Shown here: piece by piece, positions 31,040-56,661 of the stretch
How positions within the stretch are numbered: the stretch's first letter is position 1
Layout of the letters: the number at the start of each line of letters is the position of its first letter
Source: Gemmatimonadota bacterium
GTDB lineage: Bacteria > Gemmatimonadota > Gemmatimonadetes > Gemmatimonadales > Gemmatimonadaceae
DNA length: 64,000 nt
Assembly: GCA_021298835.1 (NCBI GenBank)
Contig: JAJTHG010000008.1
Span: forward strand, 1 to 64,000
Direction: 5' to 3'
Made by a program: the position numbers and the translations under genes
Notes under the pieces: generated by a model
Told to the model about the DNA's origin: nothing
Database searches by the model: none
Seen by the model: the letters and a program-made list of their open reading frames with translations, nothing else

Positions 31040-31099
31040 TCGGTGCTCGCTGAGTTCGGGCGTCGCGTGCTGCACTGGCCGCGTGCCGACGAAGATAAC

Positions 31100-31120
31100 G
31101 TGTGGAGAACGATTCCACAC
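31100..31120. promoter_or_regulatory. Inverted repeat upstream of ftsZ
   Basis: GTGTGGA, 7-nt spacer GAACGAT, TCCACAC: perfect 7-bp arms. Each arm carries a near DnaA-box (TGTGGAGAA on the plus strand; GATTCCACA opposite). It is 60-80 bp before the ftsZ start. Either a protein operator or a leader hairpin. Confidence 0.45.
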
Positions 31121-31157
31121 CGTATCGAGAGCAACGTCGCGGCTTTGTGGCGGTTGT

Positions 31158-31179
31158 CAAGATGGTTTTCCACATCTTG
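31158..31179. promoter_or_regulatory. Hairpin enclosing a DnaA-box-like TTTTCCACA
   Basis: CAAGATG, 8-nt loop, CATCTTG: perfect 7-bp arms. The exact 9-mer TTTTCCACA is at 31166-31174. It is about 130 bp before the ftsZ start and abuts the TTGACA-like hexamer. Confidence 0.45.
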
Positions 31180-31300
31180 GTCGGGCGCACGTATCCCGTT
31201 TCCGCCCCCCCTCTCGGCACGCCGCCGTTTCCCGATCGCAGCCCTTGGCCAGGTGCCACCTCGGTCCGATCCCTTCGTGGAGGGACCGGTCAGCGAGGGA

Positions 31301-32575: not shown

Positions 32576-33301
32576 TTACGGCAAGCGGGCGACGACCTGA
32601 TCACGATAGCGGAGATCCAGTTCCTTCGCGCGGAGCCCCCGCCGGTCGAGGTCGCGAGCGACCGGCAGGATCTCCGCCAGCCGCGCCGGCGTCACGTCGG
32701 ACGCCGCGCGGACCGGCAGGTCCCCCATAGTGACGACGAACTCCGCCGTTCCGGCACGCCGAACCTCGCTGATGCGGGCATAGACGTCGGGGACGTCGGA
32801 ACGGACCCGGCCCAGAAGGGCGAGCACGGCGGTGTCGCGCTGCGGGACGATCGGGGCGTCCACCGGCATCACCGCGGGCTCGAGCGGCAGCGCCCGCCCT
32901 GCCGCGTCGAAGGCCCGGAAGCCGTCCCGGCCCGGCACCAGCGCCACGGGGACGACCTCCTCCACGGAGAGAACCAGCGTGCCGGGCAAGCGCCGGTCAA
33001 CCACCGCGTTGGCGACCTGCGGATGGCCCCGCACGCGCTCGGCGTAAACCGACAGGTCGTCCCAGACCGACCGGGTCGTGTCCACGCGCATGCGATCCAC
33101 GAGGACCTGCGGGTCGATCCACCGCACCCCGTGAACTTCCACGCGCCGTATATGGAAGAACGCCAGCGGGCGCAGGGTCATGGGCCCCCACCACGGCATC
33201 CCCAGCGCGGCCACGGCCGCGACGACCAGTGCGACCCGGCCCCACCGGATAGGTCGGCGCGCCCCGCCAGCCGTTGCGCCCGGTGCTGCCGGAGCCGTCA
33301 C
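32576..33301 (-). CDS. ftsQ: Cell division protein FtsQ
   Basis: Bitopic divisome protein of 241 residues. Short cytoplasmic N-terminus, one membrane helix (VALVVAAVAALGMPWWG), a POTRA domain beginning FFHIRRVEVHGVRWIDPQVL and a beta domain. RRLPGTLVLSVEEVVPVALV is the typical junction block. The GTG start overlaps the murC stop (GTGA). murB and ddl, which usually lie between murC and ftsQ, are absent. Confidence 0.9.
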   Translation of the reverse strand: MTAPAAPGATAGGARRPIRWGRVALVVAAVAALGMPWWGPMTLRPLAFFHIRRVEVHGVRWIDPQVLVDRMRVDTTRSVWDDLSVYAERVRGHPQVANAVVDRRLPGTLVLSVEEVVPVALVPGRDGFRAFDAAGRALPLEPAVMPVDAPIVPQRDTAVLALLGRVRSDVPDVYARISEVRRAGTAEFVVTMGDLPVRAASDVTPARLAEILPVARDLDRRGLRAKELDLRYRDQVVARLP

Positions 33302-34692
33302 GACCGCCCCGCCAACGCCGCGAGCAGGTCGCGGGACGCCAGGGTGATGTCCCCCGCCCCCATGGTCACGACGACGTCGCCGCTCCGGAGCGCGGGCCGC
33401 AACGATGCGACCACGTCCGTCCGGGGACCGGTCCAGGCCGGCGGACGTCCCGCGCCGGTCATGGCGGAGGCGATGAGCGCCGAGCTGACCCCGGGGATCG
33501 GCTGCTCGCGCGCGGGATAGATGTCGCACAGCCAGACCGCGTCGGCCGCGGCGAGCGCCGCGCCGAACTCGGTGGCGAAGTCGCGCGTGCGGCTGAACAA
33601 GTGCGGCTGGAACGCGACCACCAGCCGACGTCCGGGATACGCGCCACGGGCCGCCGAGAGCGTCGCGGCGACCTCGGTCGGGTGATGCGCGTAGTCGTCC
33701 ACCACCTGGATGCCGCGGACCTCCCCGATGCGCTGGAAGCGACGCTCCGCCCCCTGCACCCCCGCCAAGCCGCGCGCCATCGCGGCCGGCTCGGCACCAA
33801 GCGCCAGCCCGGTCCCGATCGCCGCCAACGCGTTGCGGACGTTGTGAAGGCCCGGCAGCGGGAGCACGAATTCGCCGATCGACTTGTAGTCGAAGGTCAC
33901 GTCGAAACGACTGCCCACTCCCTCGGGCCGGATCCGGCGAGCCACGAGACGGGCGTCGGGAGACACCGCCCCCTCGACCTCGATCCCGTACCGGATCACT
34001 TCGGCCGACACCGGATACGGCAGGCGATTGGCCTCGGGATCATCGGCGCAGGCCACGACCCAACGCGCGGGCTTCAGGAATGTGGAAAACGTCTCACGGA
34101 TGTCCTCGAGGTCGCGATAGATGTCGAGGTGGTCCGCTTCGAGATTGGTGACGATCGCCACCGTGGGGCGCAGCGACAGGAACGACCGGTCGTACTCATC
34201 GGCCTCGACCGCAAAGACATCGTCGCCGCCACGCCGAAGGTTCCCGCCCCACGCCGCGACACGCGCGCCAACGACTCCGGTTGGCTCCATCCCGGCAGCC
34301 GCCAGGGCCTCGGTGACGAGCACCGTCGTCGTCGTCTTGCCGTGCGTCCCCGCCACCGCCACGACCCGTCCATCGTTCACGGCCTCCCCAAGCGCCTCCG
34401 CCCTCCTGATCACGGGAATGCCAATTTGGCGGGCCCTGTCGATCTCAGGATGACCCTTCGGCATCGCCGACGTGACGACGAGTGCCCGAGCACCGTCCAC
34501 ATGCGAGGGTTCATGACCGGCGACGACCGGAATGCCCAAGGCCTTCAGATCGCCCACGCCGGCGATGCTCGCGTCGCAGCCCGTGACGCGGACCCCCCGT
34601 CTGTGGAAAAGCTCTGCGAGCGCGCTCATCCCCGCCCCGGCGATTCCAACGAAATGCACCGGTCGAACATCGTCGCTGTGGAAAAGCGCCAT
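33298..34692 (-). CDS. murC: UDP-N-acetylmuramate--L-alanine ligase
   Basis: Adds L-Ala to UDP-MurNAc, the first peptide step of peptidoglycan synthesis. It is 464 residues from the ATG (MALFHSDDVRPVHFVGIAGAG). The nucleotide-binding motif is VAGTHGKTTTTVLVTEAL; VEADEYDRSFL, TNLEADHLD, LPGLHNVRNALAAI and DDYAHHPTEVAATL are Mur-ligase blocks. An extension 22 codons upstream runs into the AT-rich leader and is rejected. Three copies of TTTTCCACA lie inside the N-terminal third, built from codons that are rare here (CTT, TTT, ACA, AGA). GC content is visibly lower in this end of the gene. Confidence 0.97.
   Translation of the reverse strand: MALFHSDDVRPVHFVGIAGAGMSALAELFHRRGVRVTGCDASIAGVGDLKALGIPVVAGHEPSHVDGARALVVTSAMPKGHPEIDRARQIGIPVIRRAEALGEAVNDGRVVAVAGTHGKTTTTVLVTEALAAAGMEPTGVVGARVAAWGGNLRRGGDDVFAVEADEYDRSFLSLRPTVAIVTNLEADHLDIYRDLEDIRETFSTFLKPARWVVACADDPEANRLPYPVSAEVIRYGIEVEGAVSPDARLVARRIRPEGVGSRFDVTFDYKSIGEFVLPLPGLHNVRNALAAIGTGLALGAEPAAMARGLAGVQGAERRFQRIGEVRGIQVVDDYAHHPTEVAATLSAARGAYPGRRLVVAFQPHLFSRTRDFATEFGAALAAADAVWLCDIYPAREQPIPGVSSALIASAMTGAGRPPAWTGPRTDVVASLRPALRSGDVVVTMGAGDITLASRDLLAALAGRS
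34081..34089. promoter_or_regulatory. DnaA-box-like TTTTCCACA in murC
   Basis: Exact 9-mer (TGTGGAAAA on the plus strand), fitting the TTWTNCACA DnaA-box pattern. In murC it encodes F-S-T as TTT TCC ACA, starting at codon position 1. Confidence 0.4.
34602..34610. promoter_or_regulatory. DnaA-box-like TTTTCCACA in murC
   Basis: Exact 9-mer, same orientation as its neighbours. In murC it lies in CTT TTC CAC AGA (L-F-H-R), starting at codon position 2 and using the rare AGA codon. Confidence 0.4.
34677..34685. promoter_or_regulatory. DnaA-box-like TTTTCCACA at murC start
   Basis: Exact 9-mer overlapping codons 3-6 of murC (CTT TTC CAC AGC), 75 bp from the site at 34602 and close to the AT-rich island. 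Confidence 0.45.
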
Positions 34693-34729
34693 ACTCACTT
34701 TGTGCGTATTGCCCCGACGCTGACAGCAC

Positions 34730-34744
34730 TGACAATGATTGTCA
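34730..34744. promoter_or_regulatory. Perfect 7-1-7 palindrome resembling a Fur-family operator
   Basis: TGACAAT-G-ATTGTCA, 38 bp before the murC start. It matches the Fur 7-1-7 pattern TGATAATnATTATCA except for one symmetric change (T to C at position 4 and its mate). It may bind a Fur, MntR or other dimeric regulator. Confidence 0.45.
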
Positions 34745-34784
34745 TGTGAGAAGTGCAAAATGTTGTATTAGTTAGCATTGTCGC

Positions 34785-34805
34785 TTCAATCTAAAGACGA
34801 TTGAA
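34785..34805 (-). terminator. Hairpin directly after murG
   Basis: TTCAATC, 7-nt loop, GATTGAA: a perfect 7-bp stem beginning 3 bp past the murG stop. It is AT-rich and not followed by a U-run; it could attenuate read-through from murG into murC. Confidence 0.35.
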
Positions 34806-34808
34806 AGG

Positions 34809-35921
34809 TCAGTTGGCGATCAGCGTGCGCACTCTCTCGGCGATCTCAAGCGCTGAGTCAGGGCGCGCCCGGCGGAGCGCAGCGATTCGCATGGCCTTCA
34901 GGCGCTCCTCGCCTGCCAGCAGCTTGTCCACAGTGTCAGCCAACGCCCTGGAAGTCAACGTCTGCTGTGGAAAACAGATGGCGGACCCGGCGTCCTCGAG
35001 TGCGCGCGCGTTGGTGGTCTGGTGGTCGGCGGCGGCGGTCGGGAGTGGGATCATGATTGCGGGAAGGCCCCACGCCGACAGCTCGGCGCAAGTGATTGCA
35101 CCAGCCCTGGTGATCGCCAAATCGGCAGCAGCGTACGCATGGGAGATCGGCGACAGATATGGCGTCACGACGATACGACCATCGCTGGCGAGGTCCCGAT
35201 ACTGGGCCTCCTGCCCTGCACCGGTGGCCCAGATGAGCCCGACGCCAGCGGGGAGTCCGGAGCGTACCCAGCCCGCGACGGCCTCGTTGATCGCACGAGC
35301 ACCCTGACTGCCCCCGAAGACCAGCACGATCCGGCCGAGTTCGGTCGTCAGGCCAAAGCGTCTCCTTGCGTCGGCGGCGGATTCGCGCGCTGCCGGCGGC
35401 GGTTCGATCGGGCTTCCTGTCACAAACGTTGCCTTTCCACGGAAGTGTGGTGCGGCTTCGGGAAAGCCCAGATAGAGCTCGCGGGACCAGCGCGCCGCCC
35501 ATCGGGCGGTGAGGCCCGGCACGACATCGGCGACTTGTTGGACGACCGGCACGCCGCGGCGACCGGCCCAGGCGACGGCGAGGCCCATGGCGTAGCCGCC
35601 GGTACCGACGACCGCGACCGGGGGGCGTTCGCCGGCCAGCGCGGTGAGTCTGCGCCACGCCAGCACGGCCCCGCGCACGGTCTTCCAGTTCTCCCACGGT
35701 CGCCGGCGATAGAGGGGGTGCAGGTCGAGCAGCTCGAAGGCGAACCCCTGGGTCGGCAACACGGTGCGTTCGATGCCTCGACGAGCCCCGATGAAGAACG
35801 GCTCGATCGCGGGATCGAGCCGTACGAGGGCACGGGCGATGGCCAGCCCCGGGTACAGGTGCCCGCCGGTACCGCCTCCGGCGAACCAGACGCGTCGCCG
35901 GTCGCCGGTCGTCGCAGGCAT
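34809..35921 (-). CDS. murG: UDP-GlcNAc:lipid I N-acetylglucosaminyltransferase
   Basis: GT28 glycosyltransferase that makes lipid II at the inner membrane. It is 370 residues. N-terminal VWFAGGGTGGHLYPGLAIA, VVGTGGYAMGLAVAWAG, second-domain VLVFGGSQGARAINEAV and the donor-site ITRAGAITCAELSAWGLPAIMIPLPTAAADHQTTNA are all present. The ATG (MPATTGDRRR) was chosen although the frame is open upstream through the Pro-rich minisatellite, because no ATG, GTG or TTG occurs there. No Shine-Dalgarno sequence; translation may depend on reinitiation after ftsW. Confidence 0.95.
   Translation of the reverse strand: MPATTGDRRRVWFAGGGTGGHLYPGLAIARALVRLDPAIEPFFIGARRGIERTVLPTQGFAFELLDLHPLYRRRPWENWKTVRGAVLAWRRLTALAGERPPVAVVGTGGYAMGLAVAWAGRRGVPVVQQVADVVPGLTARWAARWSRELYLGFPEAAPHFRGKATFVTGSPIEPPPAARESAADARRRFGLTTELGRIVLVFGGSQGARAINEAVAGWVRSGLPAGVGLIWATGAGQEAQYRDLASDGRIVVTPYLSPISHAYAAADLAITRAGAITCAELSAWGLPAIMIPLPTAAADHQTTNARALEDAGSAICFPQQTLTSRALADTVDKLLAGEERLKAMRIAALRRARPDSALEIAERVRTLIAN
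34924..34932. promoter_or_regulatory. DnaA-box-like TTGTCCACA in murG
   Basis: Matches the DnaA box preferred in high-GC actinobacteria. It points opposite to the TTTTCCACA sites and lies within the murG 3' end. Confidence 0.35.
34976..34984. promoter_or_regulatory. DnaA-box-like TTTTCCACA in murG
   Basis: Exact 9-mer encoded as TGT TTT CCA CAG (C-F-P-Q), starting at codon position 3; TTT and CCA are rare here. Confidence 0.4.
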
Positions 35922-52545: not shown

Positions 52546-54164
52546 CGGGCCTCGGCGAGGGCGTCGAGGTTGGCGCGCGCAGCGGCGTTCGACGCGTCGA
52601 GCTGGAGGGCCCGTTCCCAGTGCGCCGCAGCGTCGCGCACGTCCTGGCGCCGGAAGCGCAGGTTGCCGAGCTTGACGTGCAAGTCCGGCCCGAGCGACGG
52701 CGCCAGCCGAAGGGCGCGCGTGAAGCTCTCGAGCGCCTCGTCGAACCGGCCGGCGCGGTAGTGCAGATCGCCCTGCGTCTTGAAGGCGGGGGCGAGCTGC
52801 GGGTCCTCCAGCACCGCCTGCTGGGCGGCCTGCGCGGCGGCGTCGAAGCGGCCGAGACGCTCGAGGACGGCGGCGTGATTGGCGTGCAGCACGGCGGCCC
52901 GCGGATGGACGGACGTGCCGTCGCGCAGGATCGCCTCGGCTCGCTCGACGTCGCCGCGGAACGCGGCGACGAGCCCGGCGAAGTGGAACCACGGAGCGGG
53001 GGGCGGGCGCGTGGTGAAGCGGTCGCGGGCGACGGCGAGCGCCTCGTCGGCACCGGCGAGGTCGCCGAGCCGCAGGGCGAGGACGCCGCGCGAGAGGTGC
53101 ACGAGGCCGTCGGCGTCGCCGCCCCGGGCGATCGCCTCGTCGTTGACCTGACGGGCCTCGTCGAGGCGCCCGAGGCGCTCGAGGGCCAGAGCGAGGTTGT
53201 GCAGCACGGCGACCCCGGTCCCGCCGCGCATCGCGAGCTCCTGCAGGACGCTCACGGCCTCCTGCGGCTTGTCCTGCCGCAGGAAGATCAGCGCGGTGTA
53301 GAAGCGGCCGACGGGGTCGCCCGCGAGCAGCTCGTGCACGCGGCGGAACTCGCGCAGGGCCTCGTCGAGCATCCCCGTCCGGTAGAAGGCGACACCGAGG
53401 TTGCGGTGCTCCTGCACCTTCTGCTCGCTCTTCGGGTCGCTCGGCTGCGGCTTCGTGCGCCCCACGCGGTGGAGGAAGCCCGCGGTCAGCAGGCCGTAGA
53501 TCGCCTTGCCGACGTCGAACTCGACCATCCCCGACTCCTCGACGAGCTGCGCCACGTCGCGCCGGCCGTCAACGAGGACGGCGATCGCCCGCTGGTCGGG
53601 CGACACCTCCTCCTCGGCCGCCGCGAACTTCGCGTGATCGAGCTCGAAGACGACATCGAAGCTGGGGACCTTCTTCTCGATGACGCTCCACTCGTCCACC
53701 CGGCGGGCGCCCTCGAGCAGCAGCGACTCCGGGTTGATCGAGACGAGCAGGTCCTGCAAGTCCGGGACGACGTCGGCCTCGAACGAGAACGACCCCTGGG
53801 TCCAGGTGAAGAGGAAGTACACCGCCTCCTCGATCTGCACCCGGATCTGCTGGTGGAGCTGGTCGCGCGTGATGAGGCCGCGTTCGACGAGCAGCTCGCC
53901 GACCCGGCGGTCGCGCGACTTCGTCTGCTCGGCGATCACGTCCTCGAGCTGCGCGCGCGAGATGACGCCGCTCTTGACGAGGATGTCGCCCAGACGGTCG
54001 CGGCGGTTGACGATCGCGGCGTAGCTGATGCGCCCCTTGTCGAAGTACACGTACCCGAAGTTGTTCCGGTACGTGACGCTGAGGCAGCCGGTCTTCTTCC
54101 CCATCGCGAGCAGCTGGAGCACGTCGGGGAGCGACGCCTCGCGGAGCGAGCCCTTGATCGCCAT
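52542..54164 (-). CDS. DUF4388 (PATAN)-TPR protein, copy 1
   Basis: 540 residues. The N-terminal PATAN/DUF4388 domain is [35 protein letters not shown] with YVYFDKGRISYA; a helical region with ILVKSGVISRAQLEDVIAEQ and LLVERGLITRDQLHQQI follows, resembling the GspE/MshE N-terminal fold; then EEAVYFLFTWTQGSFSFEAD, and from about 250 a series of TPRs. In other bacteria such proteins interact with response regulators and polarity modules. The ATG joins the tandem-DnaA stop as TGATG. A paralogue lies at 58292-59440. Confidence 0.85.
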   Translation of the reverse strand: MAIKGSLREASLPDVLQLLAMGKKTGCLSVTYRNNFGYVYFDKGRISYAAIVNRRDRLGDILVKSGVISRAQLEDVIAEQTKSRDRRVGELLVERGLITRDQLHQQIRVQIEEAVYFLFTWTQGSFSFEADVVPDLQDLLVSINPESLLLEGARRVDEWSVIEKKVPSFDVVFELDHAKFAAAEEEVSPDQRAIAVLVDGRRDVAQLVEESGMVEFDVGKAIYGLLTAGFLHRVGRTKPQPSDPKSEQKVQEHRNLGVAFYRTGMLDEALREFRRVHELLAGDPVGRFYTALIFLRQDKPQEAVSVLQELAMRGGTGVAVLHNLALALERLGRLDEARQVNDEAIARGGDADGLVHLSRGVLALRLGDLAGADEALAVARDRFTTRPPPAPWFHFAGLVAAFRGDVERAEAILRDGTSVHPRAAVLHANHAAVLERLGRFDAAAQAAQQAVLEDPQLAPAFKTQGDLHYRAGRFDEALESFTRALRLAPSLGPDLHVKLGNLRFRRQDVRDAAAHWERALQLDASNAAARANLDALAEAR

Positions 54165-56065
54165 CAGCGGAGCTCCTCGTGGAGGCGGGCACCGACGTCG
54201 GGCCAGTCGGCGACGACCTTCTCGGGGGAGGCGAAGAAGGGGTCGGCGACGGCCAGCGACCGCGGGGTTGCTGCCGTCGTCGGCTCGAGGACGCGGTGGA
54301 CGAGCGCCGGCCCGACCGGCACGCCGGCCTCGGCGGCGGTGCGGTGGATCGCCCGGACCATCCGCTGCAGGTCGGCGGCCGACCGCCCCTCGTCGCGGGC
54401 CACGGCGGCGATGACCTCCGGCTCGGCCTCGTCCCCCAGCGCGTGGAAGAAGCGCGCCACGAGCTTCTCCCGCAGCGAGGCGTCCGGCGGCCGGAGCTCG
54501 ACGACCAGCCCCTCTTCGAGGCGCGTCCGCACCCGGTCCTCGAGGCGCGGCAGCTCGCCCGGCGCCACCTCGCACGTGACCACGACCTGCTTGCCGAATT
54601 CGCGGACCGAGTTGAGGAGGTGGAAGAGCTCCTCCTGCGAGCGCTGCTTGCCGGCGACGAACTCGATCCCGTCGAGGCAGATCACGTCCGCCGAGCGGTA
54701 GCGGGCCCGCCACCGGTCCACCGTGTCGTCGCGGAGCGCGAGGATCAGCTCCTCGCTGAAGGCCATGGCGCTGGTGCACGCCACGCGTCGGTGCGGGCCG
54801 GCCGGGTCGGCGAGGGCGTTGGCGATCGCGTGCAGGAGGTGCGTCTTCCCCGAGCCCGGCGGGCCGACGATCACGAGGGGATTGTAGCGCCCGGACGGCT
54901 CGGCGATCACGACGTCGGCCGCGCGGACGGCGAGCTGGTTCGCGTTGCCGAGGGCGAGCCCGTCGCGCGTGAGCGACGGATCGGGTTGCGGCGGCGGGGC
55001 CGTCGCGGCCAGAAGCCGGTCCACGATCGCCTCCGCCTCGCGCACCCGCTCCGGGTCGCGGAAGCAGCGCTGCGCGCCGAGGGCGGGGTCGATCGCGAGC
55101 GCCTGGCGCTCGAGCAGGCGCAGATGTTCGACGGCCGCCTCGTACATCGCGAGCAGGCCGTCCACGTCAGGGGCCTCCGGCAGCGCGGCCGCACGCCGCA
55201 GCACGCCGGTCTCCCAGCCGATCGCTCCCCACCGCTCGATCGCGTCGCCGAGCCGCGTCTTCCAGGCCGGTTCGACGTGCTGCTGCACGGCCGCCGTCAG
55301 GCGCGAGACGAAGGCGTCGAACTCGCCGCCCCCACGCTGCGCCGGCGCGGCAGCCGGCGTCACCATGCGCGTCGGCGCGGCCCCGCCGGGCTGGAGCAGC
55401 TCGCGCTCGGCGATCAGCCGGTTGAGCTGCCCCTGCAGTTCGCGAACGTTGGTGCCGTCGCGGAGCGCGAGAGCGTCGAGCTGTTCGCGGCCCACGGTGA
55501 TCCCGCGCTCCCGGCACTTGGCGTCGAGGATGGCGAGCCGCGTCTCGTAGTCCGGCGCGGCCACGTCCACCGTCAGGCCGCCGGCGAGGCGGGTGACGAG
55601 GCGCTCGTCCACGTCCGGGATCTCGTGCGGCGGACGGTCACTCGTGAGGACGATCTGCTGCCCGGCCTCCTGGAGCGCGTTGAAGAGACGCAGCAGCACC
55701 TGCTGCGTTTCCGGATGGCCGGTGAGGAACTGGATGTCGTCGAGCAGCAGCAGATCGGAGCGCTGGAGCCGTCCCGTGAGGGCCGCGAGCTGTCCCGTCG
55801 CGACGGCGTCCGCCAGCTGGCGCACCAGCTCCTCGGTCGCGAGGACCTCGACCTGCAGCGCAGGGTCGAGGTGCGTCGCGTGCGCCCCGATCGCCCCGAG
55901 CAGGTGCGTCTTGCCAAGCCCGGAGCCGCCGTAGATCACCAGCGGGTTGTACACCGCGCCCGGGCCTTCGGCGACGGCCCGTGCCGCCGCGACGGCAAGA
56001 CGGTTCGCCGGGCCGACGATGAAGTTGTCGAAGCGGTGCGACGCGCCGGCGTAGGTCACCGTCAC
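54164..56065 (-). CDS. Tandem DnaA-type AAA+ ATPase lacking the DNA-binding domain
   Basis: 633 residues from a GTG overlapping the mglA stop (GTGA). Module 1 (1-220): [14 protein letters not shown]-loop GGSGLGKT (46-53), Walker [10 protein letters not shown] (105-113), [22 protein letters not shown] (arginine-finger region) and lid [14 protein letters not shown], all in DnaA order. A helical linker (about 250-360) follows. Module 2 (365-600): P-loop GPPGSGKT (401-408), Walker [10 protein letters not shown], in which the second acid is Gly465, and [16 protein letters not shown]. No domain I and no domain IV helix-turn-helix are present, so it should not bind DnaA boxes. Context points to the chemosensory/MglA system. 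Confidence 0.88.
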
Positions 56066-56661
56066 CGCTCCCCCCCCTGACTCAGCCGGCGGAGCACCAG
56101 CTCGGAGATCCCCTTGAGCGTCTCGAAGACGCCGGCACCGTGCAGCGCGTCGGCCGCGAAGTCGGGAACGTCGCGGAAGTTCAGCGCATCGCGCAGGTCC
56201 GGGACCGGCAGGATCAGCTCCGAGGGCAGGTCGCGCTTGTTGTACTGCAGCACCAGCGGCACCTCCCGCGGATCGAGCCCCTGTTCCGCCAGGTTCGCGT
56301 ACAGGTCCTGCAGCGACTCGACGTTCTCGTCGAACTGCCGGCGCTGGCTGTCGGCGACGAAGACGACGCCGTCGGCGCCCTGCAGCACGAGCTTGCGCGT
56401 AGCCTGGTAGTACACCTGACCGGGCACCGTGTAGAGCTGGAACTTGGTCGTGAAGCCGGAGATGCTGCCGAGGTCCAGCGGCAGGAAGTCGAAGAACAGG
56501 GTGCGGTCGGTCTGCGTCGCGAGCGACACCATGGTGCCCTTCCGGTCGGACGGGACCTGCTGGTAGATGTAATGCAGGTTCGACGTCTTCCCGGACCGGC
56601 CCGGTCCATAATAGACGATCTTGCACGTGATCTCGCGGGTCGAGTAGTTGACGATGGACAC
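56062..56661 (-). CDS. mglA: MglA-type small Ras-like GTPase
   Basis: 199 residues from a GTG ([19 protein letters not shown]). G1 is [10 protein letters not shown] (19-28); the switch II region reads [20 protein letters not shown], with TVPGQ in place of the classical DxxG, as in Mgl[22 protein letters not shown] and [13 protein letters not shown] (NKxD, guanine specificity) follow. In Myxococcus and Thermus MglA switches cell polarity and motility with the roadblock GAP MglB. It starts 2 bp after a roadblock gene, matching the usual mglB-mglA pairing. Confidence 0.95.

Follow-up and report, generated by a model that had tools for sequence, protein, structure and literature searches.

DnaA-type boxes within murC and murG of a Gemmatimonadota bacterium, and a related box upstream of ftsZ

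Four exact copies of the DnaA-type 9-mer TTTTCCACA lie within murC and murG of this Gemmatimonadota genome, and they are almost certainly under selection. A fifth exact copy, on the opposite strand, lies upstream of ftsZ in the same dcw cluster, where a DnaA-type box recurs across much of the family at a level beyond chance. The murC/murG group occurs in this lineage only among the genomes compared, and looks like a recent addition to the older ftsZ-upstream site. Below, "the window" is the whole stretch of DNA analysed (64,000 nt).

Excess over chance and codon usage

A scan of the window located the boxes listed in Table 1. The sequence-only reading had placed exact copies at 34081, 34602, 34677 and 34976; the first three positions hold, and the fourth is corrected to 34966. 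Its two further sites, TTGTCCACA at 34924 and AGTGCAAAA at 34752, are both present. It had also fitted all of them to TTWTNCACA, which is true of the exact boxes, while these two sites each depart from it by one mismatch.

Table 1. Boxes and associated features of the dcw cluster (window coordinates)
Feature	Position	Strand	Context
TTTTCCACA	31166..31174	+	ftsA-ftsZ gap, ~127 bp before ftsZ start; member of family-conserved box
murC	33298..34692	-	TIGR01082, 442 bits
TTTTCCACA	34081..34089	-	within murC, codons TTT TCC ACA
TTTTCCACA	34602..34610	-	within murC, codons CTT TTC CAC AGA
TTTTCCACA	34677..34685	-	murC codons 3-6, CTT TTC CAC AGC; F-H-S unusual for family
murG-murC gap, AT-rich	34693..34808	.	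lowest 60-bp GC ~0.33; presumed promoter region
TTTTGCACT (listed earlier as AGTGCAAAA)	34752..34760	-	murG-murC gap, one mismatch to TTWTNCACA
murG	34809..35921	-	TIGR01133, 228 bits, just below curated cut-off of 250; start inferred
TTGTCCACA	34924..34932	+	within murG, one mismatch to TTWTNCACA, orientation opposite to exact boxes
TTTTCCACA	34966..34974	-	within murG, TGT TTT CCA CAG; C-F unusual for family

An exact match was expected to occur far less than once per window, and shuffling bears this out: on average a shuffled window holds 0.04 copies of TTTTCCACA, and five copies were reached in 0 of 100 shuffles. TGTGGAAAA is the sole 9-mer in the window with at least six A/T and at least four copies, and also the sole one with at least five A/T and four copies inside 1 kb; no AT-rich 9-mer other than the DnaA-type box clusters likewise in the window. 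Across the 3.46 Mb genome (82 contigs), exact TTTTCCACA occurs 10 times and its reversed control not at all, and TTWTNCACA occurs 11 times vs 4 for the control. Its densest concentration in the genome is at murC/murG.

The boxes occupy codon phases 1, 2, 2 and 3 (in order of position) and use the rare codons CTT, TTT, ACA, AGA and CCA, as first described. We held the MurC and MurG proteins fixed and redrew synonymous codons in 3000 trials per usage table. With the codons of neighbouring dcw genes, 2993 trials gave no copy and seven gave one; with local murC/murG usage, these numbers were 2930 and 70. The observed number is four. Selection on DNA rather than protein, which the codons had suggested, is therefore well supported (at most one copy in 3000 trials), as is the DnaA-type identity of the boxes, judged by their sequence.

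Some of the encoded residues are also unusual in alignments of the family. At the 34677 box the MurC start reads F-H-S, where relatives are variable and most often of L/I-D-P type, and at the 34966 box MurG has C-F, where most relatives have H-L or similar. The L-F-H-R of the 34602 box combines states that occur separately in relatives.

Chance, or compositional bias in a segment that is foreign or locally richer in AT, is a very improbable source of the boxes. Third-position GC is indeed lower at the murC start and the murG end than in neighbouring genes, but local codon usage still gives at most one box in all 3000 trials. Segment by segment, the proteins are about as identical to the family as family members are to one another, which points to no foreign segment; horizontal transfer of the murC/murG segment left no sign in this comparison.

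Distribution of the boxes in the family and the genome

Within the family, 15 of 35 distinct upstream regions carry an exact TTWTCCACA at most 350 bp from ftsZ. Permuted motifs averaged 0.07 (2000 permutations), and no permutation reached 15. Allowing one mismatch, 30 of 45 regions have a box upstream of ftsZ vs 6.6 expected from mononucleotide shuffles, while the exact box is upstream of ftsZ in 0/9 of a more distant group. These boxes mostly share one orientation relative to ftsZ, and by eye a CACA/AAA-rich element recurs ~25 bp before them. On sequence grounds, this DnaA-type box is conserved beyond chance and common to much of the family. In the window, the ftsA-ftsZ gap (31093-31180) also contains TTCTCCACA (minus strand) and GATTCCACA near the exact box.

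The murC/murG boxes are distributed differently. Among relatives, taken here as genomes outside the host's genus, TTWTNCACA occurs at none of 29 murC loci. The named loci from Gemmatimonadota likewise have none near murC; one of them (L084) has a single copy in its ftsA-ftsZ gap. Counting boxes that differ by no more than one base over the interval -500 to +700 bp relative to the murC start, 47 loci of relatives, a small number of which share a genome, average 0.19 vs 6 here. The array is absent from every relative in which the murG-murC junction could be read. A spaced pair of boxes, allowing two mismatches, was matched in 4 of 178 other family genomes; the matched sequences are unlike the MurC start, and we took them as chance rather than as relatives' arrays. 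Conservation of the murC/murG 9-mers in relatives thus fails as a line of support (the proteins are kept, these 9-mers are not), and by sequence comparison the array is, as far as these genomes extend, specific to this lineage. This does not imply a chance origin, since the codon test was made within the host genome and is independent of relatives. The original suggestion of DnaA control of dcw genes is strengthened at ftsZ, where the box is family-conserved; at murC, where relatives have no boxes, conservation adds nothing to it.

dnaA is on a contig (C68) separate from the dcw contig. Its upstream region contains TTGACTTTTCCACA, with the 9-mer directly after TTGAC; several relatives share this arrangement, with TTGACTT followed by an identical or near-identical box. 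This placement is consistent with autoregulation, for which it would be expected. The remaining exact copies, together with a single TTATCCACA, appear to lie upstream of dnaA, ftsZ, recA, lepB and three less clear genes. At three of these loci (L207, L209, L210) ORF calls overlap the box, and its non-coding position is our judgement from the reading frames, which place the true start downstream.

Before the recA-like gene (contig C25), TTTTCCACA lies ~245 bp upstream and ATTTCCACA ~100 bp away in the same gap, a possible further DnaA target by its sequence. In the relative G021, three TTWTNCACA occur within 1.3 kb (C1:1922313-1923630), ~1.92 Mb away from dnaA and close to where the skew changes a second time; this could be another box group outside an origin.

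DnaA control, titration or an origin

Our best explanation, about which we are evenly balanced, is that a lineage-specific DnaA array at the murC start was added to the older ftsZ-upstream box, modulating dcw transcription and holding some DnaA. Four perfect and two near-perfect boxes would have arisen around the murC start in one lineage, in a cluster that already had a DnaA-type box upstream of ftsZ. From the boxes themselves we infer that DnaA binds them in this organism, and murC would have its promoter in the gap. DnaA on both sides of the AT-rich gap might then modulate transcription of murC and subsequently of ftsQ, ftsA and ftsZ, following DnaA level or nucleotide state. The array would additionally hold some DnaA, with titration as a simple alternative or by-product.

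DnaA control is favoured by the excess of boxes over both shuffles and codon-matched recoding, by the family-conserved box upstream of ftsZ, by the same 9-mer after TTGAC at dnaA in the host and several relatives, and by the apparent placement of other strict boxes in upstream regions. There are also precedents: Caulobacter DnaA binds in the promoter region of ftsZ, and B. subtilis DnaA in that of ftsL (PMC8203912). Against it, relatives lack the murC-murG boxes, so conservation lends no support to a function at murC, and simple promoter control is made less likely by the 34081 box, which is far away, ~600 bp inside murC. A simple scan of 34000-35300, including the murG-murC gap, found no match to a sigma-70-like promoter (the host's promoter type may differ), and a similar scan found no terminator in the murC-murG region.

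The Caulobacter ftsZ promoter resembles the present case in having a DnaA-type box upstream of ftsZ, for which coupling of replication and division has been proposed (PMC8203912). DnaA binding is demonstrated there, whereas here it is predicted from sequence, and the available part of that source reports no murC-murG array in Caulobacter. E. coli has three DnaA boxes upstream of ftsZ within the ftsQA coding sequence (PMC10532879, PMC8203912). These are likewise coding-sequence boxes in the dcw cluster, but they lie in ftsQA rather than murG-murC, and our host has a separate, family-conserved box upstream of ftsZ in addition. It has also been demonstrated that the ftsQA boxes do not drive ftsZ (PMC8203912), which weakens the case for DnaA control here.

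What DnaA boxes do in the dcw cluster has been described as an open and intriguing question (PMC10532879). Here a further phylum has a DnaA-type box upstream of ftsZ at family level, as well as natural boxes placed in coding sequence against codon bias; together they give a tangible system in which to examine whether replication is linked by DnaA to division and wall synthesis. More tentatively, Gemmatimonadaceae may couple replication to division via the ftsZ-upstream DnaA site, with this lineage having extended that control to peptidoglycan-precursor genes through an array inside murC/murG, paid for in rare codons and atypical residues.

A rather unlikely alternative, though one with real points in its favour, is that the array is a datA-like locus for titration or inactivation: its replication would lower the amount of DnaA that is free or ATP-bound, and it would sit in the dcw cluster by coincidence. 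Several perfect boxes within 0.9 kb, the genome's densest group of the exact 9-mer, would suit such a role, and a box lying 600 bp into a gene is easier to reconcile with it than with control of a promoter. In E. coli, titration on the chromosome has support (PMC12371093). The array resembles datA and DARS in being a local group of DnaA-type boxes, presumably of high affinity, away from oriC. However, those loci are described in the available text as lying in non-coding DNA that is kept across E. coli strains (PMC4585315), whereas this array is found in one genome and is mostly coding, with its four exact boxes inside murC and murG. Four to six added sites would also matter little unless DnaA is scarce, and they flank a probable promoter in a cluster whose ftsZ end has a conserved box.

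The third role raised for these boxes, an origin-like locus, is disfavoured, and the array is probably not the chromosomal origin. A relocated or secondary origin in the murC-murG gap would account for the box cluster, with its four exact and two near members, next to AT-rich DNA, an arrangement also found at bacterial oriC with a basal unwinding system, and raw GC skew does switch sign at ~34.8 kb. The gap is AT-rich, as claimed from the start (lowest 60-bp GC 0.33); the corresponding values are 0.48 for the host dnaA-dnaN gap and 0.37-0.43 for those of five relatives. Such an origin is nonetheless improbable. In the host, the dnaA-dnaN gap retains CTG-CTA-CTA behind a stretch resembling a box, an arrangement like that of G021 and G011, whereas murG-murC has no consensus DnaA-trio and just a run of ATC ATT GTC after TTTTGCACT. 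The trio's absence alone is weak, as the same scan missed trios in the dnaA-dnaN gaps of 4 of 10 relatives.

Strand-corrected skew also shifts at dnaA. Taken in the direction of dnaA, skew at four-fold sites on C68 lies between -0.12 and -0.42 upstream of the gene, then comes to around zero and turns slightly positive farther downstream. This host test covers two contigs of a draft genome; the shift is similar to that in most relatives with data (G004 and G011 excepted from the comparison). At 34.8 kb there is no sustained strand-corrected change, only a local flip whose sign reverts within ~20 kb on either side (C64). In G021, a single contig of 4,636,964 bp, the dcw cluster lies at 1.715 Mb, 1.7 Mb from dnaA and within a single skew sign; the sign switches close to dnaA and again at about 2.0 Mb. 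The origin at murC-murG that raw skew had suggested is disfavoured on the strength of strand-corrected skew and the trio scan; that relatives lack the array argues the same way. By title or abstract, we found no paper on DnaA boxes or oriC in Gemmatimonas/Gemmatimonadetes.

That a protein other than DnaA recognises the 9-mers is barely plausible: DnaA recognition is a prediction from sequence and a unique palindrome suggests another regulator in the gap, but the 9-mer is the classic DnaA box and stands at the dnaA promoter across the family. The palindrome, TGACAATGATTGTCA (34730-34744), is a perfect 7-1-7 repeat, which we take to resemble Fur-family operators. As a regulon member it was rejected, with no second copy at up to two mismatches in the genome.

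The window also encodes an 820-aa protein (54164-56626, minus strand) that matches PF00308 (DnaA-type AAA+) twice and to which no DnaA DNA-binding domain was matched; it is suggestive of a tandem Hda. Most relatives also have paired DnaA-type matches; the G021 pair precedes murC by ~22 kb and shares its strand.
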